This document shows, in pieces, positions 15,351 to 33,928 of a stretch of DNA of 56,364 nt (its first letter is position 1; each line of letters begins with the position of its first letter). A program made the translations under genes and the position numbers. Origin of the DNA: Deltaproteobacteria bacterium (GTDB lineage: Bacteria; Desulfobacterota; Binatia; UBA9968; JAJDTQ01); assembly GCA_026712905.1 (NCBI GenBank), contig JAPOPM010000159.1, positions 1 through 56,364 on the forward strand, given 5' to 3'. A model generated the notes under the pieces. That model ran no database searches and was not told the DNA's origin. It worked only from the letters and a program-made list of their open reading frames with translations.

Positions 15351-17123
15351 ATGAATCGACCCACAATCGAGGACAACTGCTTGACAACCACCGGCATCCG
15401 CTACGAGCCCCATGAGAAGCCTCCGGTCGTGCTCTCCCTGGGCCTCGGCCTGCAACTCGCGGTCATCAGCGCCACCGTCACCATCCTGATCCCCACGGTG
15501 GTGATGCGCGCCGCCGGCGCCGCGGAGGCTCACCTGGCATGGGCCGTGTTCGCCGCCACCTTCATCTGCGGGGCGGCCACGGTGTTGCAGACCGCCCGGT
15601 TCGGCCGTGTCGGCATGGGTCAGGCGCTCATGATGGGCAGTTCCGGGGCCTTCATCGCGGTGTGCATCACCGCGGCGGCCGAAGGCGGTCCGGCACTGCT
15701 CGCCACGCTCGTCGTGGTCGCCGCGCTCTTCCAGCTCCTGCTGTCCGCGCGGCTGTCGCTGTTCCGGCGGATCATGACGCCGGCCGTCTCGGGGACGGTC
15801 ATCATGCTGATACCCGTGACGGTGATGCCGGTCGTCTTCAAGATGCTCTCGGACGTGCCCGACGGCAGCCCGGCGGCCGCCGCGCCGGTGAGTGCCGTCG
15901 TCACGATCCTGGTGATCCTCGGCGCCTCGCTGAAGGCCACCGGGGCGCTGCGGCTGTGGGCGCCGGTCCTCGGCGTTGCCTGTGGCGCCGTGGTCGCGGC
16001 GCCCTTCGGCATCTACGACATGAGCGGTGTCGCGGCGTCGTCGTGGATCGGTCTGCCCAACGGCCAATGGCCGGGACTCGCCTTCGACTTCGGGCCGGCG
16101 TTCTGGGTGCTGCTTCCGGCGTTCCTGCTGGTGGCGCTCATCGGCTCCATCCGCACCATCAGCAGCTCCATCGCCGCCCAGCGCACGTCGTGGCGCCGGC
16201 CCCGGGCGGTGGATTTCCGCGCGGTCCAGGGCGCCGCCGCCGTGGACGGCATCGGCAACCTGGTGTCCGGCATCGCCGGCACGGTGCCGAACACCGCCTA
16301 TACCACCGCCGTGTCCGTGGCCGAGCTCACCGGCGTCGCCGCCCGCGGCCTCGGGGTGGCCGCGGGTGTCATCCTGATGGCGCTCGCATTTCTTCCCAAG
16401 GCTCTCGCCCTGGTGGTGGCGATCCCGGCTCCGGTGGTCGGCGCCTACCTGAGCGTGATCGTCGCCATGCTCTTCGTGATCGGTATGAAGATGGTCCTCC
16501 AGGATGGCATCGATTACCGCAAGGGATTGGTGGTCGGCGTCGCCTTCTGGGTTGGGGTGGGGTTCCAGCAGGGCGTGGTGTTCCCGGAATATGTTGCCGG
16601 GTTCGCGGGCGGTCTCTTCCACAACGGGATGACGGCGGGCGGTTTGACGGCCATACTCCTGAGTGCGTTCCTGGATTTGACGGAACCGCGCCGGCGGCGG
16701 ATCGAGTGCGAGCTGGACGTCGCCGGGATCCCGAAGATCCGGGAGTTTCTCTCCGATTTCACTTCCGCGAGCGGTTGGAACGCCGCCGTGGGGGACCGCC
16801 TCGCCGCCGCCGCCGAGGAGTCGTTGCTGACGCTCTTGCAACGACGCGATGCAGGCGGCGGCGAGGATGGCCGCCAGCGCCTGCGTCTGGTGGCGTACAA
16901 GCAGGACGGCGGGGCGATCCTGGAGTTCGTCGCCGCGCCCGGAGCGGAAAACCTGCAGGACAGGATGGCGCTCCTGGCCGAGCAGGCCGGCGATGTGCCC
17001 GGCGAGTCGGAGATGTCGCTGTGGTTGTTGCGCCACCTGTCGGCGTCGGTTCGCCATCAGCAATATCACGATACGGATATCCTCACAGTGCGCGTGGAAG
17101 CGCCACCCGGAGAAGATAAATGA
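15351..17123 (+). CDS. NCS2-like permease with C-terminal RsbW/HATPase-like domain
   Basis: A 590-aa protein. Residues about 30-440 are a nucleobase-ascorbate (NCS2, xanthine/uracil permease) fold with many transmembrane helices, including the half-conserved 'GTVPNTAYTTAVSVAELTGVAARG'. The family's usual Q/E-N pair before the Gly is replaced, so the cargo may not be a nucleobase. Residues about 445-590 form a soluble domain with an RsbW-type ATPase look ('AAAAEESLLTLL', 'WLLRHLSASVRHQQYHDTDILTVRVE'), but its N-box Asn is not obvious. The ATG at 15351 is chosen over the TTG at 15348. Its stop overlaps the PKS start (ATGA), so the two are translationally coupled: it may export the PKS product or sense a related cue. 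Confidence 0.75.
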   Translation: MNRPTIEDNCLTTTGIRYEPHEKPPVVLSLGLGLQLAVISATVTILIPTVVMRAAGAAEAHLAWAVFAATFICGAATVLQTARFGRVGMGQALMMGSSGAFIAVCITAAAEGGPALLATLVVVAALFQLLLSARLSLFRRIMTPAVSGTVIMLIPVTVMPVVFKMLSDVPDGSPAAAAPVSAVVTILVILGASLKATGALRLWAPVLGVACGAVVAAPFGIYDMSGVAASSWIGLPNGQWPGLAFDFGPAFWVLLPAFLLVALIGSIRTISSSIAAQRTSWRRPRAVDFRAVQGAAAVDGIGNLVSGIAGTVPNTAYTTAVSVAELTGVAARGLGVAAGVILMALAFLPKALALVVAIPAPVVGAYLSVIVAMLFVIGMKMVLQDGIDYRKGLVVGVAFWVGVGFQQGVVFPEYVAGFAGGLFHNGMTAGGLTAILLSAFLDLTEPRRRRIECELDVAGIPKIREFLSDFTSASGWNAAVGDRLAAAAEESLLTLLQRRDAGGGEDGRQRLRLVAYKQDGGAILEFVAAPGAENLQDRMALLAEQAGDVPGESEMSLWLLRHLSASVRHQQYHDTDILTVRVEAPPGEDK

Positions 17124-20100
17124 GCCGAGAGTCTTTCGATCCTTCCCCAAAGCGGGGCGCCCGCGCGCCCGTTCCGGCCGGAGAGCCCATCGCCATCGTC
17201 GGCATGGCGTGCCGGTTTCCGGGCGCGCCGGACATCGCCTCCTTCTGGCGCCTGCTGGAAGCGGGCGAGCACGCCATCACCCAGGGGGTCCCGGGGTCGG
17301 GTGTCGGGCGCATCGGCGAGCTGTTCCCGGACGCCGCGGTGCAGAGCGAAGCGTGCCGGTTCGGCGCCTTCGTCACCGACATCGACCGGTTCGACGCGGC
17401 CTTCTTTCGCATCTCGCCGGTGGAGGCGGCCCTGCTGGACCCGCAGCAGCGCATGATGCTGGAGACGAGCTGGCAGGCGCTGGAAGACGCGGGGGTGGAC
17501 CCGGAGCGGCTCAAGGGCACCCGTACGGGCGTGTACGCGGGCATCAGCAACAACGAGTACCGTGGGCTCATCCTCGGGGCCAGCGAGACCGCCGAGCCGG
17601 CCACCAGCCTCTACACGGTCACCGGTACCTCCTTCAACACGGCCATCGGCCGGGTCGCCTTCGCCCTCGGGCTGGAGGGGCCGGCCATGGCGGTGGACAC
17701 CGCCTGTTCCTCGTCGCTGGTGGCGATGCACCAGGCGGTGTCGGGTCTGCAGCGGGGCGAGGCGGACCTGGCGCTCGCCGGCGGCGTGCACGCGATCCTT
17801 TCCGGGCGGCTGTTCGAGCTGCGCGGCAACGCCGGCATGCTTGCCCCGGACGGACGCTGCAAGACTTTCGATGCCGCCGCCAACGGCTACGTGCGCGGCG
17901 AGGGTTGCGGCATCGTGGTGCTCAAGCGGCTCGCCGACGCGGAGGCGGACGGCGACCGCATCTGGGGGGTGATCCGCGCCGTGGCGGTGAACCAGGATGG
18001 CGCCAGCCCGGGCCTGACGGTGCCCAGCGGACCGGCACAGGAGCGGGTCATCGCCGACGCCCTCGCCCGGGCCGGCGTGCTGCCGTCGGACGTGGACTAC
18101 GTCGAGGCGCACGGCACGGGCACGCCGGTGGGAGATCCCATCGAGGCGGGCGCCACCGGGGCCGCCTACGGCGAGGGCCGCGATCCGGACCGTCCGCTGC
18201 TGATCGGTTCGGTGAAGACCAACGTCGGCCACCTGGAGTCCGCCGCCGGCGTGGCGGCGCTTATCAAGGTCGTGCTGTCGATGCAGCGCGGGACGATACC
18301 GAGGCATCTGAACTTCCGCGAGCCGAATCCGGAGATGGAATGGAGCCGGTTGCCCCTGCGCGTGACCGCCGAACCGACGGACTGGCCCCGCCGCCCCGGA
18401 CTCCCGCCCCTGGCCGGGATCAGCGGTTTCGGTTGGTCGGGCACCAACGCGCACGTGGTGGTGCAGGGGTACGACGCTCCGGCCGCGACCGGGCCGATGC
18501 GCTGGCCCGCGGGGCCGTCTCGGGCCATCGCCGTGCGGCAAGCCGAGGAACCCGCCGCGCCGGCGGGCCTCGAGGCGCGCCGGACCCGCCTCCTGCCGCT
18601 CTCGGGCAAGACCGAGGATGCGCTGCGGGGGCTGGCCGGGCGGTATCTGGACTGGCTCGACAAGCACGCCGGCGAGCCTTCGTCCGGGAGAGGGGCACGA
18701 GACTCCCTGCTTTCGGACATGGCGTGGACGGCGAGCGTGGGCCGGAGCCATTTCGGTCATCGCAAGGCGTTGCCATTCCGGGATGCCGCGAACCTGCGCG
18801 AGGGGCTGCGGGAGCTGGCCGGCGCCGGCGGAACCACGGCGCCGGTCGCGGACGCGCCCGCCCGAGTGGCGTTCGCCTACACCGGCCAGGCCAGCCAGTG
18901 GGTGGGCATGGGGAAGGACCTCTACGAGACCGAGCCGGTGGCCCGTGCGGTGCTGGACCGTTGCGACGCGGTGCTGCGGGAGGAGCGCGGCGTCTCGCTG
19001 CTGGACGTGATGTTCGGCCGGACCGGAGACCTGGACGACCCGGCGTGGACGCAGCCCGCCATCTATGCCCTGGAGTGCGCGCTGACCGCGCTGTGGTCGA
19101 GCCTCGGAATCCGGCCCGACGTGGTGGTGGGGCATAGCCTCGGCGAGATCGCGGCGGCGCAGGCGGCGGGGGGGTTCGGCCTCGAGGAGGGGTTGCGCTT
19201 CGCCGCCGCCCGCGGCGCGCTGATGGGAGCGCTGCCCGGCGAGGCGGCGATGGCGGCGATCTTCGCCACCGAGGAGCGGGTGGCGGAAGCGGTGGAGCAG
19301 TTGAACGCCGCCGCCGGCGGCCCCGGCGTGAGCATCGCCGCGGACAACGGCGCCAGCCAGGTGATCAGCGGATACGCGGCGGACGTGGAGGCGGTGCTGG
19401 CGCGCTTCGAGAGCGAGGACGTGCAGGTTCGGCGGCTGAGGAAGAGCCCGGCCTACCACAGCGCCGTGGTGGAGCCCGCCCTCGACGGCGTGGAAGCGGC
19501 GCTTTCGGGCGTGGCCGTCGCCGCGCCTTCGGTGGTTTTCGTCAGCACGGTGACCGGCCGGGTGACGGAGCCGGGGAAGGTGCTGGACGGTGGCTACTGG
19601 CGCCGCCAGGCGCGGGAACGGGTGGCGTTCCGGAGCGCGGTGGAGACGCTGGCGGAGCTGGGGGTGGATGCCGTGGTGGAGATCGGACCTCACGCGGTGT
19701 TGGGGCCCATCGTGTCCATGGCCTGGCCGGCGGCCCCCGTTCCGGTGCTGTCGAGCCTCAGGCGTCCGCCGCGCGACACGCCGGCGGACGAGGCCCGGGA
19801 CTCCTTCGTGGCCGCCGCGGCCGAGGCCTACGAGGCGGGGCTCCCGGTGTCGTTTGCCGGGCTTTTCGGCGGCGAGGAACGGCGCCGGATCGCCTTGCCG
19901 AACTATCCCTTCGTGCGCGAGCGCCATTGGTTCCGGGCGCCGCGCCGCCGGCGCCAAGGCGCCGGCCATCCTTTGCTCGGCAACCGGCACGAGTCCGCCA
20001 GCGGCGAGGTGACCTACGAGACCGAGGTGTTTCCCTCCGATCCCTCGTGGCTCGACGATCACCGGGTGTTCGGGCGGCTGGTGGCGCCGGGTGCGCTCTA

Positions 20101-23100
20101 CGGCGCCATGGCGGCCGCGGCATCGGCCGCGGAGGGGGCCGGTGGCGGGGTGTTGGAGGACATGCAACTCCACAATCCGCTGATCTTCTCCGAGCGCGAT
20201 AGCGGCGAAGGCGACGAAGCTGGCCGGAAGATGCAGGTGCTGCTCGACGCCGCCGGCGACACGCCGTCGCGCCGCGTCAGAATCCTGAGCCGCCCCGACG
20301 ACGGGGAGCGATGGACGCTGCACGCGGAGGCACGGGTGGCGCCGGGCGCCGGCGGTCCCAACGCCGAGGCGCGGGTGGACCTGGACAGCCTCAAGGCGGG
20401 GCTGTCGCCGGAGGACGTGCCGGCGTTCTACCGCGCCAAGGCCGAGGTGGGGATCGGCCTTGGTCCCGCGTTCCAGACGCTCAAGGCCGTGTGGTCCCGG
20501 ACCGGCGAGGCCGTGGGCGAGGTGGCGCTTCCGAAGGCCCTGGAAGGGAGCGGTCTGGACGTGCATCCGCTGCTGCTCGACGGCTGCTTCCAGGTCATGG
20601 CCGCGGCCCGCGGTCCCGCCGGGGGCGAAGGCGGCATCACCTACCTGCCGTTCGGCTGGGACCGGCTGTGGTTGAAGGGCCGGCTGCCCGAGCGGCTGGT
20701 GTGCCACGTGCGCATGCGCGAGGCGCCTTCGGGCGCGAATCCGGACTCGGAGAGCGGTGAGCCGCGGGAGGTGCTGAGCGGCGAGCTGCGGGTCTACGAG
20801 CCCGACGGCGTCCTGGTGGGCGAGTTCACGGGGTATACGGTGAAACGGGCAACGCGGGCCGCGTTGCTCGCCGCCGTGGAAGGCCTCGAAGAGCTGCTGT
20901 ACGAGATTGTGTGGCGCGACCGGCCGTTGGCGCCGGGCATGCCGGCGGCGGACTTCTTCCCGAGTCCCGCCGCCGCCCGGGGCAAGTTGTTCTCGGAGTA
21001 CATGGCGGACGAGGGCGTGGAGGCCGCGGACCGGGCGGCCCTGCTGGATGATTTGGAGCGGTTGTCGCGTTCCTATGCCCTCGCGACCCTGGACAAGCTG
21101 GGCTGGGAACGCAAGGTGGGCGCTGCGGTAGACTCGGAGGAATTGCGGCAACGGCTGGAAGTCCAGCCGGAGCACCAACGTCTGTTCCGGCGGCTGCTGG
21201 AGATGCTGGCCCGGGCGGGCGTCGTCGAGGAGACGGACGGGCGCTTCACGGTGCGGGTGGGTTCCGGGGACGCGCTGCCCGAGGAGATGCACGACGACCC
21301 GGATGCGTTCGCGGTCCGGATGCTGGGACTATACTCACACGGTACCACCGAGATCGGCCTGTTCCGGCGCTCGGCGGGCGCCCTCGCAGAGGTGTTGCGC
21401 GGCCACGCGGACCCCCTGACGCTGCTGTTCAGCAGCGGCGAGCCCACGGCGGCGGACCTGTACCTCAAGGCGCCGGCGGCGCGCGCGGCCAACCGGATGC
21501 TGGCCGATGCGGTGCGCGTGCTCGTGGCCGGTTTGCCGGAGGGACGGCGGCTGCGGGTCATCGAGGTGGGGGCGGGCACGGGCTCGGCCACCGCGTCGGT
21601 GTTGCCGGAGCTTCCGGCCGGGCGGTTCGACTACACGTACACGGACATCTCGGCGGGCTTCTTCGCGGAGGCGGAGGCGCGTTTCGGCGACGCCGGCGGC
21701 GCCATCCAGTACCGCGTGCTGGACATCGAGAAGGAGCCGCTGCCCCAGGGATTCGACCTCCACGGGTACGACCTGCTCATCGCCTCCAACGTGCTGCACG
21801 CGACGCGCTATCTTCAGGAGACGCTGGCCCACTGCCGGGACCTTCTTGCGCCGTCGGGCCAACTCCTCGCTCTCGAGAACCAGCGCGGCCAGGGTTGGCT
21901 GGATCTGACCTTCGGACAACTGGACGGCTGGTGGCGGTTCGCCGACCATTACCGGCCGCACCACGCCCTGGCCGGTCCGCCGGTGTGGCGGCAGGCTCTG
22001 GGCGACGTGGGCTTCGCCGCGGCCGACGTGCTGGGCGTGGACGAGTCGGACGCGGCCGGACCGCCGGACCGGGGCGTGGTCCTGGCTCAGGGGCCGGTGG
22101 AGGTGGCCGAGGAGCGCGGGCTGTGGGTACTGGCCGCGGACCGCGGCGGGGCGGCGGCCGAGTTGGCGGCGGCGCTGGCGGCGCGGAACCAGATGGTGGT
22201 GCTGGCGGGGGCGAAGGAGGGGAGCGACGGGCGGTCGCCGGAGGACGGCGCCGGAGTCGTGGAGAGGGCGGTTGAACCGTTGCGCCGCGAGTCGTGGGAA
22301 GCGCTCTTGCGCGGCCTCCCGAACGAGGTGCCGCTGAGCGGCGTCGTGCACTCGGCGGGCCTGGACGGTCACGGGCCGGAGGCCACCACGGACGAGATGG
22401 CCGAGGACGCGAAGCAGGCCGCGGCCGGGGCGCTGGCGCTGCTGCAAGGGGTGGTGGACTCGGACGCGGTGCCGGGCAAGGGCCTGTGGCTGTTGACCCG
22501 CGGCGCCCAGGTGCTGGAGCGGGAGAGCCGCGGAGAGCTGGCGGGCGCGCTGCTCTGGGGCATGGGCAAGGTGGTGGCCAGGGAAGCGCCCCACCTTCAG
22601 CCGCGGATGATCGACCTGGACCCGGAGGCCGCGGCGCCGCCGGAGGCGCTTGCCGAGGAGCTCCTCTACCCGGACGCCGAGACCCACGTCGCCTACCGCA
22701 GGGGCTCCCGCCGGGCGGCCCGGCTGGTGCGGGCCGGCGCGGGCATGGAGCGGCTGGCCTTGCCGGACGAGCCGGGCTGGGTAGTCTCGCCGGACCCGGG
22801 CGGCGTCCTGGAGGGGCTGGACGTGGAGCCGGTGCCGGCGCGCGCCCTGGAGCCCAGGGAAGTCCGCGTCGCGGTGGAGGCCGCCGGCCTCAACTTCTGG
22901 GACGTGTTCCGTTCCCTCGGCTTCATCCAGGAAGGGTTGCTGGGCGGCGAGATGTGCGGCCACGTTCTGGAAACGGGCTCCGAGGTAACCGCCGTCGAGC
23001 CCGGAGACCGGGTGGTGGGATTGGGGTTCGGCACCTTCACGCCGGAAGTGGTCACCCGGGAGGAGATGGTGGCGCTCGCGCCGGAGGGCATGCCGCTGAC

Positions 23101-26100
23101 GGCGCTGGCGACGCTCCCCACCGCGTTCGTGTCGGCCGCTCTCTCCTACGAGTTGGCCGAGTTGAAGGCGGGTGACCGGGTGCTGATCCACGCCGGCGCC
23201 GGCGGCGTGGGCCTCGCGGCCATCCAGTTGGCACAGGCGGCCGGGGCGGAGGGCTTCACCACCGCCAGCGCGCCCAAACAGGCCTATCTACGGTCCCTCG
23301 GCGTCACCCACGTGTTCGACAGCCGCAGCACGGCGTTCGGCAAGGAGGTCCTGGACGCTACCGGCGGCGCGGGCGTGGGCGTGGTGGTGAACAGCCTTAC
23401 CGGCGAGGGCTTCATCGACGCGAGCCTGTCCTGTCTGGCCCGCGGCGGCCGGTTCGTGGAGCTGGCCCGGCGTGACATCCTCTCCGAAGAGGAGATGGCC
23501 GCGGTGCGTCCGGACGTGGCCTATTTCATCCTGGAGCTGGACGTTCTCAAGTCGGATGACCCGGCACGGGCGGGCACGGCCCTCAACAAGGTGATGGAAC
23601 AACTGGCGGCCGGCGAGGTGCGGCCGTTGATCCACAGCCGCTGGCCATTGGCGGAGACCGGGGAGGCCATGCGCTTCATGCGTGCCGCCCGGCACGTGGG
23701 CAAGATCGTGCTGGCGGCGCCGCCCCTGGCGAACGGCGGCCTGCGGCAGGACCGCACCTACCTCGTGACCGGCGGTCTGGGCGGCATCGGCTGCGTGCTG
23801 GCCGAGTGGCTCGCGGACCGGGGCGCGGGGGCCATCGTGCTGAACGGGCGCCGGGATCCCGACCCGGCCGTGGCGGAGACCATCGCCGCCCTCCGGGCGC
23901 GCGGCGCGGCGGTGCGGGTGGAACTGGCGGACGTGACCGACGGCGCGGCTGTGGACGCCATGCTGGAGCGGATCGAACAGGACCTGCCGCCCCTCGGAGG
24001 CGTGATCCACAGCGTCGGGGTGCTGTCGGACGCCGCCCTCGGCAACCAGAACTGGGAGCGGTTCGAGGCGGTGCTGTGGCCCAAGGTGCTGGGCGCCTGG
24101 CACCTGCACCGGGCCACGGCGGACCGCGATCTGGACATGTTCGTGCTGTTCTCAAGCGTGGCCGGCGTGCTGGGCAATCCCGGCCAGGCCAACCATGCCG
24201 CGGCCAACGCGTTTCTCGACCAGCTCGCCGCCCACCGCCGGGCGCGGGGCCTTCCGGGGCAGACCATCGCCTGGGGCGCGTGGGCCGGGCTCGGCGAAGC
24301 CGAGGAACAGCGGGAGCGCATCGCCCGGCAATTGGAAGCGTCGGGTACCGGCTGGATGAGCCCGCAGCAAGGTCTTCGGGCATTCGACCGGATGGTCCGG
24401 CAGGATCCGGCCTCCGCCATGGTGGCGGCCGTGGACTGGGCGTCGTATGGCGAGGCGGTCCAGGAAACCCCGGCGTTCCTGGAGGAGCTTCTGTCCACGG
24501 ACTCCGACGGCGCCGGTGACGTCGCGGCCCTTGCGGACGATCTGCCGTCGATGCTGCGGGCGACCCCGGCCGCGGGGCGGGAAGCACTGCTCGTGTCGTT
24601 CCTGCAACAGGAAGTGCAGGCGGTGCTGCGGCTGCCGTCGGCGCCCGCCCCCACGGTGGCGTTCTTCGATCTCGGCATCGACTCGCTCATGGCGGTGGAG
24701 CTTCGGAACCGGTTGAACCGCGCGTTCGCCGGGGAGTACGTGGCTCCCAACACCGTGGTATTCGACTACCCGGACATCGCCGCGCTCGCGCACCACCTGG
24801 CCGGGGAACTGGGCGAGGCGGGCGCAGGGGCCACCGAAGTTGTGTCTGCTCCAGAGCCCCCTCCGAGGGAACGGTTGGACGACGACGGCATCGCCATCGT
24901 GGGCATGGCGTGCCGTTTCCCCGGCGCTCCGGATCTCGCCGCGTTCTGGCGCCAGCTCGAGGCGGGCACGGACGCGGTGACCGACGGACGCCCGGACCCG
25001 GGCTCCTGGGACGGCGTCGTCGGAGACCCGGCGAGCCCGGACGAATGGTCCCGGGTGGGTGGTTTCATCGAGGACATCGACAAGTTCGACGCGGCGTTCT
25101 TTCGCATCACTCCCATCGAGGCGCGGATGATGGACCCGCGGCAGCGGCTGCTGCTGGAGACGAGCTGGCACGCGCTGGAAGACGCGGGCATCGACCCGGA
25201 AACGCTCCGGGGCAGCCGCACCGGCGTGTACGCCGGGGTCAGCAACGGCGACTACCGGGACCTCGCGTTGGCCATGGGCCGCTCTCACGGATACCTGGGC
25301 ACGACCACAAGCGTGGCCACCGGGCGGGTGGCGTTCGTCCTGGGTCTCAACGGCCCCGCGGTGCCGGTGGACGTGGCGTGCGCGTCGTCGCTGGCGGCGG
25401 TGCACCAGGCGGTTTCCGCGCTGCGCCAGGGGGAGGTGGACCTGGCCCTTGTCGGCGGGGTCAACGCCATGCTGTCGCCCACGGTCACGATGTTCATGCG
25501 GGAGGCCGGCATGCTGTCCGCGAGCGGCCGCTGCCGCACCTTCGACGCCGGAGCCGACGGTTTCGTCCGGGGCGAGGGTTGCGGCATGGTGGTGCTGAAG
25601 CGGCTGAGGGAGGCGCAGGCGGACGGGGACCGGATCTGGGGCGTGGTCCGGGGATCGGCGGTGAACCAGAACGGCGCCGCCGCCGGGCTTACGGTCCCCA
25701 ACGGGCCGGCGCAGGAGCGGGTGATCGAGGATGCCCTGTCGCGGGCGGGGATCGCGCCCGCGGAGGGGGACTACCTGGAGGCACACGGCGCGGGGTCGGA
25801 CCTCGGCGATCCCATCGAGGTGAACGCCGCGGCGTCGGCCTACGGCAGGGGACGCGAGGAGGCGCGGCCCCTGCTGATGGGATCGGTGAAGACGAACATC
25901 GGCCACCTGGAATGCGCGGCGGGTGTCGCGAGCCTGATCAAGACGGTGCTGGCCATGCACCACGGCGTCATACCCAGGCATCTGCACTTCCATGAGCCGA
26001 ACCCGCACCTGGACTGGGACGATCTCCCGGTGCGCGTGGTCTCCGAGGCAACGGAATGGCCGCTTCGCCCGGACCACCCGCCGCGAGCCGGCGTCAGCGC

Positions 26101-27442
26101 TTTCGCGCTCTCGGGCACCAACGCCCACGTGGTGGTGGAGGGTTATCCTGCGCCCGATGACGCCGCGGCACCGGGCGGCGGACCCGAAGCGCCCACGGGC
26201 GCCGGACTCGTGGTCGCGTTGCCGGAGCCGCTGGGGGACCTGTCGTCCGCGGCAGGCGAGCTGGAACCCCGGAGCGTGCGGGTCCTGCCGCTCTCCGGCA
26301 AATCGCCCGGTGCGCTGCGCGAACTGGCGCGACGTTACCTGTCGTGGCTCGACGATCGCGCAGGGGAGTTTTCCTCGGACGATGGCGCCACGGCGCGGGT
26401 CCTCGCGGACATGGCGTGGACGGCGGGAGTGGGAAGGAGCCACTTCGATCACCGGGCGGGGCTCGTGTTCCACGACGTCGAGTCGTTGCGGCGGGAGTTG
26501 AAGGGGGTAGCGGATGCGGACGCTCAGCGGCGTCCGGTGGCGAAGGCGGCCTTCGTCTACGCCGGCAACGGCAGTCAGTGGGTAGGCATGGGCCGCACCC
26601 TCTACGACGTCGAGCCCGTGGTCCGCGCGGTGCTGGACCGTTGCGACGCGACGCTCGGGCAAGAGCGCGGCGGCTCCCTGCTGGAAGTGATGTTCGGCCG
26701 CTCGGGTGCGGCCGGGGACCTGGACGATCCGGTCTGGGCGCAGCCGGCGTTATATGCGCTGGAGTGTGCGTTGACGGCGCTTTGGGCGAGCGTGGGTATT
26801 CGTCCAGCCGTGGCGCTGGGGCAGGATGTGGGAGAGCTTGCGGCCGCGCAGGCGGCCGGCGTGTTCGGTCTGGAGGAGGGGCTGCGGCTGGCCGCGGCCC
26901 GAGGCGTGTTCCTGACGGAACACGGGGCGTCGGAGGCCGCTCCGGCCGCTCTGGAGGCGGCCCTCGCCGATATCGCCGTGGCGCCGCCGTCACGGGTGCT
27001 GGTGAGCGGCGTCACCGGGCGCGCGCTGGAGGCGGCCGACCTGTCCGATGGAAGCTACTGGTCCCGGCAGGCGCGCGCGCCGGCGGCATTGGGCGAGGCC
27101 GTCCCGACGCTGACGGCGCTGGAGGTGAACGTCGTCGTGGAGATAGGCCCGGACGTGGAACTGGGTCCGGCGGTCGTGCGGGAGTGGTCGCTCGCGGCCT
27201 CGGCCGCTCATGGCCCTGCGCTGGTGGCGCTGTCGAGCCTCCGGCGGCCGTCCGCTGATGCGCGGGCGGAAGCCGCCGCCGGCGGGTTCGCCGAGGCGGT
27301 GGCGGACGCCTACGCGGCAGGGATCGAGTTGGCCTTTGCCGGTCTCTTCACCGGGGAGACGCGGCACCGGATCGCGCTTCCGGTATACCCGTTCGAGCGC
27401 CGGCGCCACTGGATCGAAGCATTGAACCGGCCGGAAGAGTGA
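17120..27442 (+). CDS. Reducing, C-methylating type I PKS: KS-AT-DH-MT-ER-KR-ACP-KS-AT*
   Basis: A 3440-aa protein. KS1 about 22-450 (Cys196, His331, His371). AT1 about 583-880 (GHSLGE Ser673, His780). DH about 948-1240 (His981 in HxxxGxxxxP, Asp1154 in DxxxQ). C-methyltransferase about 1290-1660 ('VIEVGAGTGSAT'). KR structural half about 1690-1880; ER about 1890-2200 ('HAGAGGVGLAAIQLA'). KR about 2212-2450 ('GGLGGIG', catalytic-Tyr position is His2359). ACP about 2480-2570 (GIDSLM, Ser2522). KS2 about 2590-3007 (Cys2754, His2889, His2929 intact). AT* about 3130-3400: GHSLGE has become GQDVGE (Asp3236), and about 75-80 residues including the catalytic His are gone. No ACP or TE follows KS2-AT*. 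One full reducing module fits iterative synthesis of a saturated methyl-branched acyl chain. AT1 specificity motif ('PAYH') is unusual and unassigned. Confidence 0.93.
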   Translation: MSRESFDPSPKRGARAPVPAGEPIAIVGMACRFPGAPDIASFWRLLEAGEHAITQGVPGSGVGRIGELFPDAAVQSEACRFGAFVTDIDRFDAAFFRISPVEAALLDPQQRMMLETSWQALEDAGVDPERLKGTRTGVYAGISNNEYRGLILGASETAEPATSLYTVTGTSFNTAIGRVAFALGLEGPAMAVDTACSSSLVAMHQAVSGLQRGEADLALAGGVHAILSGRLFELRGNAGMLAPDGRCKTFDAAANGYVRGEGCGIVVLKRLADAEADGDRIWGVIRAVAVNQDGASPGLTVPSGPAQERVIADALARAGVLPSDVDYVEAHGTGTPVGDPIEAGATGAAYGEGRDPDRPLLIGSVKTNVGHLESAAGVAALIKVVLSMQRGTIPRHLNFREPNPEMEWSRLPLRVTAEPTDWPRRPGLPPLAGISGFGWSGTNAHVVVQGYDAPAATGPMRWPAGPSRAIAVRQAEEPAAPAGLEARRTRLLPLSGKTEDALRGLAGRYLDWLDKHAGEPSSGRGARDSLLSDMAWTASVGRSHFGHRKALPFRDAANLREGLRELAGAGGTTAPVADAPARVAFAYTGQASQWVGMGKDLYETEPVARAVLDRCDAVLREERGVSLLDVMFGRTGDLDDPAWTQPAIYALECALTALWSSLGIRPDVVVGHSLGEIAAAQAAGGFGLEEGLRFAAARGALMGALPGEAAMAAIFATEERVAEAVEQLNAAAGGPGVSIAADNGASQVISGYAADVEAVLARFESEDVQVRRLRKSPAYHSAVVEPALDGVEAALSGVAVAAPSVVFVSTVTGRVTEPGKVLDGGYWRRQARERVAFRSAVETLAELGVDAVVEIGPHAVLGPIVSMAWPAAPVPVLSSLRRPPRDTPADEARDSFVAAAAEAYEAGLPVSFAGLFGGEERRRIALPNYPFVRERHWFRAPRRRRQGAGHPLLGNRHESASGEVTYETEVFPSDPSWLDDHRVFGRLVAPGALYGAMAAAASAAEGAGGGVLEDMQLHNPLIFSERDSGEGDEAGRKMQVLLDAAGDTPSRRVRILSRPDDGERWTLHAEARVAPGAGGPNAEARVDLDSLKAGLSPEDVPAFYRAKAEVGIGLGPAFQTLKAVWSRTGEAVGEVALPKALEGSGLDVHPLLLDGCFQVMAAARGPAGGEGGITYLPFGWDRLWLKGRLPERLVCHVRMREAPSGANPDSESGEPREVLSGELRVYEPDGVLVGEFTGYTVKRATRAALLAAVEGLEELLYEIVWRDRPLAPGMPAADFFPSPAAARGKLFSEYMADEGVEAADRAALLDDLERLSRSYALATLDKLGWERKVGAAVDSEELRQRLEVQPEHQRLFRRLLEMLARAGVVEETDGRFTVRVGSGDALPEEMHDDPDAFAVRMLGLYSHGTTEIGLFRRSAGALAEVLRGHADPLTLLFSSGEPTAADLYLKAPAARAANRMLADAVRVLVAGLPEGRRLRVIEVGAGTGSATASVLPELPAGRFDYTYTDISAGFFAEAEARFGDAGGAIQYRVLDIEKEPLPQGFDLHGYDLLIASNVLHATRYLQETLAHCRDLLAPSGQLLALENQRGQGWLDLTFGQLDGWWRFADHYRPHHALAGPPVWRQALGDVGFAAADVLGVDESDAAGPPDRGVVLAQGPVEVAEERGLWVLAADRGGAAAELAAALAARNQMVVLAGAKEGSDGRSPEDGAGVVERAVEPLRRESWEALLRGLPNEVPLSGVVHSAGLDGHGPEATTDEMAEDAKQAAAGALALLQGVVDSDAVPGKGLWLLTRGAQVLERESRGELAGALLWGMGKVVAREAPHLQPRMIDLDPEAAAPPEALAEELLYPDAETHVAYRRGSRRAARLVRAGAGMERLALPDEPGWVVSPDPGGVLEGLDVEPVPARALEPREVRVAVEAAGLNFWDVFRSLGFIQEGLLGGEMCGHVLETGSEVTAVEPGDRVVGLGFGTFTPEVVTREEMVALAPEGMPLTALATLPTAFVSAALSYELAELKAGDRVLIHAGAGGVGLAAIQLAQAAGAEGFTTASAPKQAYLRSLGVTHVFDSRSTAFGKEVLDATGGAGVGVVVNSLTGEGFIDASLSCLARGGRFVELARRDILSEEEMAAVRPDVAYFILELDVLKSDDPARAGTALNKVMEQLAAGEVRPLIHSRWPLAETGEAMRFMRAARHVGKIVLAAPPLANGGLRQDRTYLVTGGLGGIGCVLAEWLADRGAGAIVLNGRRDPDPAVAETIAALRARGAAVRVELADVTDGAAVDAMLERIEQDLPPLGGVIHSVGVLSDAALGNQNWERFEAVLWPKVLGAWHLHRATADRDLDMFVLFSSVAGVLGNPGQANHAAANAFLDQLAAHRRARGLPGQTIAWGAWAGLGEAEEQRERIARQLEASGTGWMSPQQGLRAFDRMVRQDPASAMVAAVDWASYGEAVQETPAFLEELLSTDSDGAGDVAALADDLPSMLRATPAAGREALLVSFLQQEVQAVLRLPSAPAPTVAFFDLGIDSLMAVELRNRLNRAFAGEYVAPNTVVFDYPDIAALAHHLAGELGEAGAGATEVVSAPEPPPRERLDDDGIAIVGMACRFPGAPDLAAFWRQLEAGTDAVTDGRPDPGSWDGVVGDPASPDEWSRVGGFIEDIDKFDAAFFRITPIEARMMDPRQRLLLETSWHALEDAGIDPETLRGSRTGVYAGVSNGDYRDLALAMGRSHGYLGTTTSVATGRVAFVLGLNGPAVPVDVACASSLAAVHQAVSALRQGEVDLALVGGVNAMLSPTVTMFMREAGMLSASGRCRTFDAGADGFVRGEGCGMVVLKRLREAQADGDRIWGVVRGSAVNQNGAAAGLTVPNGPAQERVIEDALSRAGIAPAEGDYLEAHGAGSDLGDPIEVNAAASAYGRGREEARPLLMGSVKTNIGHLECAAGVASLIKTVLAMHHGVIPRHLHFHEPNPHLDWDDLPVRVVSEATEWPLRPDHPPRAGVSAFALSGTNAHVVVEGYPAPDDAAAPGGGPEAPTGAGLVVALPEPLGDLSSAAGELEPRSVRVLPLSGKSPGALRELARRYLSWLDDRAGEFSSDDGATARVLADMAWTAGVGRSHFDHRAGLVFHDVESLRRELKGVADADAQRRPVAKAAFVYAGNGSQWVGMGRTLYDVEPVVRAVLDRCDATLGQERGGSLLEVMFGRSGAAGDLDDPVWAQPALYALECALTALWASVGIRPAVALGQDVGELAAAQAAGVFGLEEGLRLAAARGVFLTEHGASEAAPAALEAALADIAVAPPSRVLVSGVTGRALEAADLSDGSYWSRQARAPAALGEAVPTLTALEVNVVVEIGPDVELGPAVVREWSLAASAAHGPALVALSSLRRPSADARAEAAAGGFAEAVADAYAAGIELAFAGLFTGETRHRIALPVYPFERRRHWIEALNRPEE

Positions 27443-29473: not shown

Positions 29474-30583
29474 TCAGCCGAAACGGGCGGGGGAGAAGTC
29501 GGGGTCCGGGTCGGCGCCGAAGAGGAGGTTGGCGGCCAGGGAGCCCACCGCCGCGCTGGTGGTGACGCCGTGGCCGGCGAGTCCCGCCACCCAGAAGAAA
29601 CCGTCTACTTGAGGATCCCATCCGATGACGAAGCGGTTGTCGTCGCTGAACGTCCGGAGGCCCGCCCAGTAGCGCGCGATGGCGATGTCGGGGAACTTGG
29701 GATAGACGGTCGCCAGCCTCTCCGCCAGCAGCTCCATGGCGCGGATGTCGGTGGGCGGGTCGCACGGCGGCATGTCCTCCTCGTCACATGGGCACAGCAT
29801 GAGGCCGCCGGAGTTGGGCTGGAAGTAGATCTCGTCCGAGACGTTGAGGCAAAAGGGCCACTCGGGCTTGACCCAGTCGAGCGGCGGGGTCACGAACAGG
29901 TGCCGGCGCCGCGGATGGAACGCGATGGGCGCCGCTCCGGCCATCACGCCCACGGGTCCGGCCCAGGGTCCGGCCGCGTTCACCACCACGTCGGCTTCCA
30001 GGAAACCCTGATCCGTGGCGACGCCTTGTACGCGCCCGTCGTGCATGCGTATCTCGCGCACGGTTTCGCCGTAACGGATCGCCGCGCCGCCTCTCTGGGC
30101 CACCCGGAGATACCCGGAGAGCAGGGCGTTGATGTCGATGACGCCGTCCGAGGCGCACCACACGGCGCCGTCCAGGGCGCCCCCTTCGATCAGCGGCATG
30201 GCCGCCAGCGTCTTCTCGGGTGACCACAACTCGACGTCGAGGCCGCGCCCGCGCGCCAGCTCCGCGTCCCCGCACAAAGCCTCCCATTGTGCCCCGCGCC
30301 CGAGGATCAGGCATCCGATGGTGTCGTACGAGACCGGCACGGGCCAGCCGGGCGGGGGGGTGCGGATGAACTCGGCGGATTTCGCCGCCATGTTGCCGAC
30401 GGAGGGCTCGGAGAGCACCTGCCGAATGAAGCCCGCGTTGCGGCCGGACGAGTGGAAACCGGCCACGGCTTCCTGCTCCAGGATCACCATCCGCCGGGCG
30501 CCGCGGTAAGCCAGGTGGCAGGCCGTGGCCGCTCCGGCGAATCCGGCGCCGATGATCACGTATCTTGCGTCTTCGGGTCGCAT
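29474..30583 (-). CDS. FAD-dependent oxidoreductase (DAO family)
   Basis: A 369-aa flavoprotein of the D-amino-acid oxidase/glycine oxidase family. The N-terminal dinucleotide fold is 'VIIGAGFAGAATACHLA', followed by 'SSGRNAGFIRQ', 'VVNAAGPWAG' and the C-terminal FAD motif 'FFWVAGLAGHGVTTSAAVG'. It would oxidise the CN or CO bond of an amino or hydroxy acid, passing electrons to O2 or an acceptor. The substrate is not readable. It is followed in the same direction by a threonine-aldolase gene upstream on the map (72 nt gap), so amino-acid breakdown is plausible. It converges on clpP. Confidence 0.85.
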   Translation of the reverse strand: MRPEDARYVIIGAGFAGAATACHLAYRGARRMVILEQEAVAGFHSSGRNAGFIRQVLSEPSVGNMAAKSAEFIRTPPPGWPVPVSYDTIGCLILGRGAQWEALCGDAELARGRGLDVELWSPEKTLAAMPLIEGGALDGAVWCASDGVIDINALLSGYLRVAQRGGAAIRYGETVREIRMHDGRVQGVATDQGFLEADVVVNAAGPWAGPVGVMAGAAPIAFHPRRRHLFVTPPLDWVKPEWPFCLNVSDEIYFQPNSGGLMLCPCDEEDMPPCDPPTDIRAMELLAERLATVYPKFPDIAIARYWAGLRTFSDDNRFVIGWDPQVDGFFWVAGLAGHGVTTSAAVGSLAANLLFGADPDPDFSPARFG

Positions 30584-30655: not shown

Positions 30656-31684
30656 TCAGGCCTCGCGCAACACCTCGCGGATCCGCTCGATCGCGTTGTG
30701 GATGTCGGCGGCCGAGATCTGGAGGTGCGTCACCGCGCGCAGCCAGCCGTTGCCCACGTGGTTCATGAGTACGCCCTTGCCACGCAACGCTTCCACCATG
30801 GCCGGTCCGTCGGGCGCGCGCCAATAGACCATGTTGGTGGCTGGGTCGGCGATCTCCACCTCAAGCGGCCTGCCATTGTGCATGAATTCTTCCAGGCCGT
30901 GTGCGAGGGCGGCGGCGTGGCGGTGGTCTTCCGGCAGACGCCGCCGATGCTGCCGAACTCCGTACAGCGCGGCCGCGGCCAGGAACCCTGCCTGGCGCAT
31001 GCCGCCGCCCAGGCGCTTGCGGATCTTGCGCGCGTGCGCGATGGCGTCGCGGCCGCCGGCCAGGGCGGAGCCCACGGGCGCGCCCAGGCCCTTGGAGAAG
31101 CATACCGCCACCGTGTCGAAACCCGCCGCCAGATCGCGCTCGGAATCGCCCGTGGCGGCGGCCGCGTTCCACAGCCGGGCGCCGTCGCAGTGGGTCTTGA
31201 GGCCCAATCCGCGCGCCGTCGTCACGATCCGCTGTGCCTCCCGGCAGCCCAGGGCGCGGCCGCGGCCGCGGTTATGCGTGTTCTCCACCAGGATCAGGGC
31301 GGAGGGGGACTCGTGCAGTCCGTCGGCGCGGAAGCGGCTCGTGATGGCCGCGTCGGACAGCTTTTCCTGAAACGGGATGATGTCGAACTGAACGCCGGAG
31401 AGCGCCGCCCCGGCACCGGCCTCGTAGGCGAAGGTGTGCGACCCTTCCTCGCACAGCACCGAGTCGCCCGGGTGCGTGTGGAGCCGGATGGCGATCTGGT
31501 TGGCCATGGAGCCGGACGGCGTGAACACCGCGGCCTCCTTGCCCAGGATGCCCGCCACCTCTTCCTCCAGCCGGTTGATGCTGGGATCCTCGCTGTAGAC
31601 GTCGTCCCCCACCTCGGCCGCGGTCATGGCCTTGAGCATGTCGGGTGTGGGCGTCGTAACCGTGTCGGAGCGGAGGTCGATCAT
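30656..31684 (-). CDS. ltaE: Low-specificity L-threonine aldolase
   Basis: A 342-aa PLP enzyme of the threonine aldolase family, normal length. Signatures: '[16 protein letters not shown]', '[11 protein letters not shown]', '[13 protein letters not shown]', '[10 protein letters not shown]' (PLP-interacting Asp) and the Schiff-base Lys in '[12 protein letters not shown]'. It cleaves L-threonine or L-allo-threonine to glycine and acetaldehyde. It overlaps the RodZ-like gene by 4 nt (ATGA), so the two are co-transcribed although their functions look unrelated. Acetaldehyde from this reaction is a possible substrate of the AOR elsewhere in the window (speculative). Confidence 0.9.
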
Positions 31685-32941: not shown

Positions 32942-33928
32942 CTAGTTCGCGGTGTCGAAGATCGGCGCACCAGGGTAGAAGGCGACGAATCGGTCGTTCA
33001 GGATCGGGTTGTACAGGAGTTGGCGGAGTTTCCGCCCCTTGAGCTCTCCCTCAACGGCCTCGCCGCGCAGCCACGACCACAGGCTCCCGGTCTCCTTGTC
33101 GCGCAGCAGCGCGTTGCCCTGGGAGTCCTTGCGTTCCGACTGCTCGAAGGTGAGGACGCGCCCGTCCAGTTCCCGGCGCCACGCGGTGCCCGTGGCGTCG
33201 TCCGGTGAGTAGTAAACGATCACCTTGGCGCCGTTGAACTCGTCGTTGACCAGGTTTTGCCGCTCCAAGACCCCGTAGGGGTAGAGCTTGGCCTTTAGTT
33301 TCACCAGCACCGCGAGTCCCAGGATGTCGCTTTGGAAGGGACCGACGTAGGTGCCCATGAACCCGCCGCGGCGGTATCCCGGCAGCACCTGGGTAAAGGG
33401 ATAGTTCTTCTTCCAGTTGGCCCAGGTCGTCACCGTGGACGGCATGAAATCGAGCCTCTTGCCCTTGAGCGGGCCGTGTGCGGCCTCGCCGGTGACGTGA
33501 ACCCACAGCGACTCGGTTTCGCGGTCGTACATGATGAACGAGTTCTCGAAGAGTATGCCCGCGTGCCCGAAGCTCAGCACCTTGTCGTCGAGTTTGCGTC
33601 TATACACGATAGACGTTTGGCACAGCGGTCACCAGGAGACCGCGATGGGCACCCCTCCAATGGTGTCGTTGCCCAGTTCGTGGACCCCCATGATGGTGAT
33701 GGGATAGGCCTTGGCCTCGCCGTTGTGGGCCACGCCGATGATCACGTCCCGATCGAAGATGACTTCCTGTTTTTCGGCTTCCGCGGCGCTCAGCATCTTC
33801 GGGTCGTCGAAGACCGGAAACGCGTCCCGCGGCACCGCCTGGTACCCGATGGGCTGGGCCGCCGCCGTCGCCGCCAGTGCGGTCAACACGGCCGCGACCG
33901 CCCAGGCCGTCGCTGATCTTCGCAGCAT
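32942..33928 (-). CDS. DUF3179 protein with in-frame TGA: candidate selenoprotein (U100)
   Basis: Read through one TGA (33629-33631), this is a 328-aa DUF3179 protein with a signal peptide (about 1-22). Before the TGA come 'DRDVIIGVAHNGEAKAYPI' and 'GNDTIGGVPIAVSW'; after it, in the same frame, 'PLCQTSIVYRRKLDDKVLSFGHAG' and 'YDRETESLWVHVTGEA'. DUF3179 proteins normally carry 'YCPLC' at this spot, so the TGA replaces exactly the first Cys of a CxxC motif (U-P-L-C). The remaining 229 codons are intact and family-like. A hairpin of bacterial SECIS type follows the TGA. ATG at 33928 has GAGGTG 6 nt upstream. The alternative is a recent nonsense mutation (TGC to TGA). Confidence 0.7.
33597..33615 (-). 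promoter_or_regulatory. Candidate bacterial SECIS hairpin downstream of the in-frame TGA
   Basis: On the mRNA, 13 nt after the UGA, CGUCUAU (33615-33609) pairs perfectly with AUAGACG (33603-33597) around the loop CGUGU. The loop starts 20 nt after the UGA and has G at its second position. This agrees with the published bacterial SECIS pattern (stem-loop just after UGA, loop roughly 16-37 nt downstream, G within the first two loop bases). A 7-bp perfect stem placed there by chance in coding DNA is unlikely but not impossible. Confidence 0.6.

Follow-up and report, generated by a model that had tools for sequence, protein, structure and literature searches.

An in-frame UGA in a DUF3179 gene of Candidatus Binatia that is very probably read as selenocysteine

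A conserved reading frame interrupted by a single TGA may be a broken gene or a gene in which that codon is read as selenocysteine (Sec), and the DUF3179 gene discussed here raises this question directly. It lies in a window of 56,364 nucleotides (contig JAPOPM010000159.1 of assembly GCA_026712905.1), the whole stretch of DNA that was analysed, which comes from a Candidatus Binatia MAG of 4.8 Mb that is 98.9% complete; among named records, MAGs of Candidatus Binatia and Deltaproteobacteria come closest. Genes of this type are usually annotated as two fragments or as pseudogenes, and their proteins are thereby lost from databases. An entry reading “DUF3179 domain-containing protein, PF11376, UxxC/T”, credited to Zhang and Gladyshev 2007 (Olavius algarvensis Delta symbiont), stands among the predicted selenoproteins in published lists (PMC9312934, PMC13188914), so the window gene is a new member of a family already predicted to contain selenoproteins. 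Drawing on the reading frame, its relatives, the Sec machinery of the genome and the RNA downstream of the TGA, we put the probability that this is an intact selenoprotein gene, with UGA 100 decoded as Sec, at roughly 95%.

The reading frame across the UGA codon

The TGA at codon 100 is the sole in-frame stop before the terminal TAG of the gene (Table 1), and from this codon, which stands in the context VSW-U-PLCQT, 228 residues run to the TAG. The sequence AGGTG can be read five bases upstream of the start. The Pfam family DUF3179 (PF11376) matches the protein across the UGA (3.4e-68, 230.6 bits against a gathering score of 27) and covers both halves of it, with the TGA falling within the first of two matched stretches and aligning with the family’s invariant Cys; a search of NCBIfam with the same protein matched no family. 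The earlier note, made from the letters of the window alone, had placed a lone in-frame TGA at the first Cys position of DUF3179 proteins and had described coding in the same frame for 228 residues free of other stops. Both statements are borne out.

Table 1. Features of the DUF3179 locus in window coordinates.
Feature	Position	Strand	Remarks
Putative Sec-encoding DUF3179 gene, 328 aa + stop	32942..33928	(-)	Predicted Sec at codon 100; single TGA shared by ten genus copies
UGA codon, predicted to specify selenocysteine	33629..33631	(-)	Aligned with TGC/TGT of Cys homologues
Candidate bacterial SECIS apical hairpin	33597..33615	(-)	7-bp stem, loop CGUGU, 13 nt after UGA
Probable N-terminal export signal (MLRRSATAWAVAAVLTALAATAAAQ)	33854..33928	(-)	Sequence read by eye; model helix 6-19
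First DUF3179 half, residues 28-186, with Sec100	33371..33847	(-)	Rieske/NirD-like predicted fold
Second DUF3179 half, residues 194-328	32945..33349	(-)	Rieske/NirD-like predicted fold; matching place without Cys/Sec

Sec/Cys exchange among relatives and the Sec machinery

DUF3179 matches occur in 46 of the 193 related genomes searched, and the viral contigs searched held no relative of the gene. Each of the ten genus copies found (84-100% identical) contains a single TGA, which stands at codon 100 in the copies that were read, and none of the unrelated extra stops that the earlier note had named as the sign of a decaying gene. The same column holds TGA in SAR324 (64-68% identity), in members of the same order and of the same class and in two Planctomycetota, and it holds TGC or TGT in other relatives as well as in Bacteroidota, Pseudomonadota, a Chloroflexota and a haloarchaeon, so that the exchange of Cys and Sec suggested as a check is found among the homologues. 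In one genome (G009) Sec and Cys copies occur side by side. On a tree of 45 DUF3179 proteins, which has long branches and for which the Sec column was kept in the alignment, 4 changes between Sec and Cys are required, and well-supported branches force at least 2 of them; such apparently repeated Sec/Cys changes in DUF3179 evolution are new here.

The codons after the TGA are under purifying selection, with dN/dS values of 0.08-0.16 over 228 codons between the window gene and four genus members. A useful contrast to the intact TGA genes is the decayed copy in genome G066 (L075), in which Tyr occupies the Cys/Sec column and two unrelated stops occur elsewhere, in a genome that yielded no selA, no selB above the cut-off and no tRNA-Sec. 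A pseudogene, cut by a recent TGA mutation and with its remainder decaying, would account for the two fragments that mechanical ORF calling yields at this locus, but it is extremely improbable given that ten genus copies and members of distant phyla share this TGA and have no other stops, and given the low dN/dS after the TGA and the different appearance of the truly decayed G066 copy.

The MAG that carries the window gene also encodes the means of inserting Sec: selA (578 bits), selB (381 bits) and selD (370 bits) follow one another in this order on contig C102, while a tRNA-Sec with anticodon TCA, tRNA-Sec(UCA), scores 73 bits. The earlier note had staked its proposal on the presence of selA, selB, selD and selC in this genome, and the proposal survives. 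Since selA is above the cut-off in 43 of the 46 genomes with a DUF3179 homologue, co-occurrence is by itself a weak test in this set. One exception speaks against Sec decoding: genome G010, which is scored 100% complete and carries a TGA form (L040), showed no selA, selB or tRNA-Sec above the cut-off, which is likely a binning loss. The selD gene of the window’s own genome (L087 2224-3348 (-), on contig C102) is likewise interrupted in frame by a TGA close to its start, in the context AAGUAAKLG. SelD is thus probably a selenoprotein, which brings the apparent Sec genes of this genome to at least two.

The candidate SECIS hairpin

In the RNA downstream of the UGA, nucleotides 33615-33609 pair with 33603-33597 in seven perfect pairs around a loop (33608-33604) whose second position is G. 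The earlier note had pointed to this hairpin, its spacing and its loop G, and comparison upholds it, in that the helix covaries in 26 Sec loci and the compensatory stem changes proposed as a check are present. For this comparison 26 distinct Sec windows were aligned without gaps, and stem columns 17-23 were set against columns 29-35. The helix is paired in 85.7% of cells (70.1 ± 1.8 in shuffles), 28 cells are changed on both sides (8.0 ± 2.2 in shuffles) and the covariation is 0.442 (0.168 in shuffles), with 0/500 shuffles as high in each case. When the partner is slid by 1-3 columns only 23-48% of cells pair, and the 19 Cys homologues pair at 42.9% in the same columns, equal to shuffles; because relatedness inflates covariation counts, it is these slid and Cys controls that carry the argument. 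The stem arms of the Sec loci include CGUCUAU/AUAGACG, CGGCGAU/AUCGCCG, CGGUUGU/ACAACCG, CGGGAGU/ACUCCCG and UGUCCGU/ACGGACG, and G-U stands at loop positions 2-3 in all Sec loci but L080 and L081. The helix is identical in the window and in SAR324 (L061) despite a dS of about 1.3-1.7 in the surrounding sequence, and a search with model R1 matched the hairpin once within the window. In L042 and L082 we read a possible helix with a bulged A, and L082 was so folded computationally. The two UTLC forms L080 and L081 (genomes G037 and G083) have TGA at the column and lack the helix of the other Sec loci; their SECIS, if any, must differ, and they too count against the Sec reading.

Folding energy alone is unremarkable, and the support for a SECIS comes from comparison and conservation. 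By minimum free energy a 66-nt segment (z = +0.44) takes a different fold, so that the hairpin is not the minimum-energy structure, and the ensemble pair probability of the helix is 0.53. The hairpin (dG -5.8 kcal/mol) becomes the preferred fold if the 12 nt that follow the UGA, which the ribosome would cover, are excluded. It also agrees with the published model of bacterial SECIS elements, which places a G at one of the first two apical loop positions and the loop 16-37 nt from the UGA (PMC13188914), the loop here lying 20 nt from the UGA with G at position 2. Rfam gave no match in the window at the gathering score, a miRNA match around the gene at a loose Rfam threshold was dismissed as chance, and RNAalifold on alignment A1 returned no consensus structure, the named helix being tested directly instead. 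Like the SECIS of E. coli fdhF, the candidate is a stem-loop that closely follows the UGA and carries G and U in its apical loop. The loop GGUCU of L069 and L079 resembles that of fdhF; the fdhF helix has a bulged U, whereas the genus of the window has a perfect 7-bp helix without a bulge.

The window protein shares with the listed DUF3179 selenoproteins the Pfam family, the Sec-for-Cys position and the motif (U-P-L-C here). It differs from them in that the members shown here come from Candidatus Binatia, SAR324 and Planctomycetota and bring SECIS covariation, new here, which gives strong comparative support to a family known as a prediction only.

The putative SECIS also seems to leave its mark on the protein. 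Codon 109 straddles the junction between the loop and the 3′ arm of the stem, and residue 109 is Tyr (24), His (1) or Cys (1) and never Phe in the Sec forms, as against Phe in 18 of the 19 Cys forms. Tyr would be used rather than Phe because a middle purine is needed to pair with the U or C of column 23, and this Tyr/Phe switch, new here, is thus probably tied to the SECIS. L080 and L081 have Tyr although they lack the helix, so a chemical reason for Tyr may also exist.

In the mechanism we propose, the ribosome would read UGA 100 as selenocysteine using tRNA-Sec(UCA), which SelB, bound to the hairpin that begins 13 nt downstream, would deliver; such decoding is supported at the level of sequence comparison. 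Reading of the UGA as Trp or another standard amino acid, at a recoded or leaky stop, would suit the hydrophobic and aromatic context (VSW before the UGA), but we consider it scarcely credible: wherever an intact homologue lacks the TGA it has Cys at this column and never Trp, a tRNA-Sec with anticodon TCA and a SelB system are present, the helix matches SECIS rules, and the neighbouring genes for an FAD oxidoreductase (29474-30583) and a lyase (30656-31684) end in ordinary UGA stops.

Predicted fold and possible function

With Sec taken as the residue at position 100, the question becomes what it does. The AlphaFold2 model is confident (pLDDT 88.6 for the full length and 94.2 for the first half alone) and predicts two similar beta-rich halves, with Sec100 closing strand 93-100. 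The best PDB structural matches of both halves are Rieske and NirD-type domains (3c0d, 4aiv, 1fqt). Foldseek gives them probabilities of 0.98 with the isolated first half and 0.93 with the full length, at E-values above 0.1, and VIA puts the full-length match on the second half. The VIA Z values are 7.8 and 8.7 over 94-96 residues, a level that a shared general arrangement can produce by itself; the near-uniform lists of Rieske and NirD matches argue for a real likeness. DUF3179 proteins differ from these domains in being duplicated, in having no CxH...CxxH ligand motif anywhere in their alignment and in the lack of significant sequence similarity: compared as a profile with 13 Rieske domains encoded in this genome, they gave no significant match (probability 3%, P 0.014). 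A sequence search of the PDB gave nothing meaningful. A shared ligand position was considered and set aside: the profile put Sec100 on the first Rieske Cys, and the structural alignment ranges leave little room for it. The confident model with both halves predicted to be Rieske/NirD-like is new here and is the first structural lead on DUF3179, a family without known function. We offer only tentatively, as something rather less than an even chance, that DUF3179 proteins consist of two Rieske folds in tandem, without a cluster, the first of which gained a catalytic Cys/Sec and so became the scaffold of a selenol enzyme. We know of no other Rieske fold that carries selenocysteine, and none of the papers in the library searched joins the two.

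Of 45 homologues, 32 have Cys at position +3 after Cys/Sec100, 10 have Thr and 3 have Val, with Thr and Val also present in some Sec forms; this variation argues that Cys/Sec100 alone is essential. The earlier note’s description of Sec in a CxxC redox motif therefore stands for the window protein, which has UPLC, and does not extend to the family, in which the two-Cys spacing is not conserved and Thr or Val often takes the place of the second Cys. Two Planctomycetota loci (L069 and L074) are UPLV Sec forms, with neither Cys nor Thr at +3, and so fall outside the “UxxC/T” of the reviews (PMC9312934, PMC13188914). Invariant residues in the same half as Sec100 include H68, H83 and D88.

The N-terminus resembles an export signal, seemingly so in several relatives when judged by eye, and the product is probably exported. 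On balance we favor a periplasmic selenol redox protein, in which Sec100 would attack or reduce a substrate, Cys103, where present, would resolve the selenenylsulfide, relatives with Thr or Val at +3 would need an outside thiol, and Sec100 may have the invariant His83 as its partner. It is less likely, at perhaps the level of a serious outsider, that Sec is inserted into a non-redox protein in which Sec/Cys100 binds a metal or small ligand together with His83 or other residues. The unconserved second Cys, with which a dithiol redox cycle would not be general, and the use of the Rieske-like fold as a metal-cluster scaffold in many known members speak for such binding, but there is no obvious conserved ligand set beyond Cys/Sec100, His68, His83 and some acids, and Sec rarely serves structural metal binding. 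The occurrence of Sec and Cys forms, in G009 within one genome, offers a workable system in which to ask what Sec adds.

Members of the genus retain RodZ-like or SDR genes beside the DUF3179 gene, and outside the genus the neighbours are a sigma factor, PhoD, an epimerase, an ABC transporter and NUDIX; as the neighbours differ outside the genus, the context gives no function. A scan of the window for other TGA-interrupted frames gave off-frame noise among those listed, in GC-rich DNA. Elsewhere in the window (17120-27442 (+)) lies a polyketide synthase frame of 3440 residues with KS, AT, DH, methyltransferase, ER, KR, ACP and a second KS.
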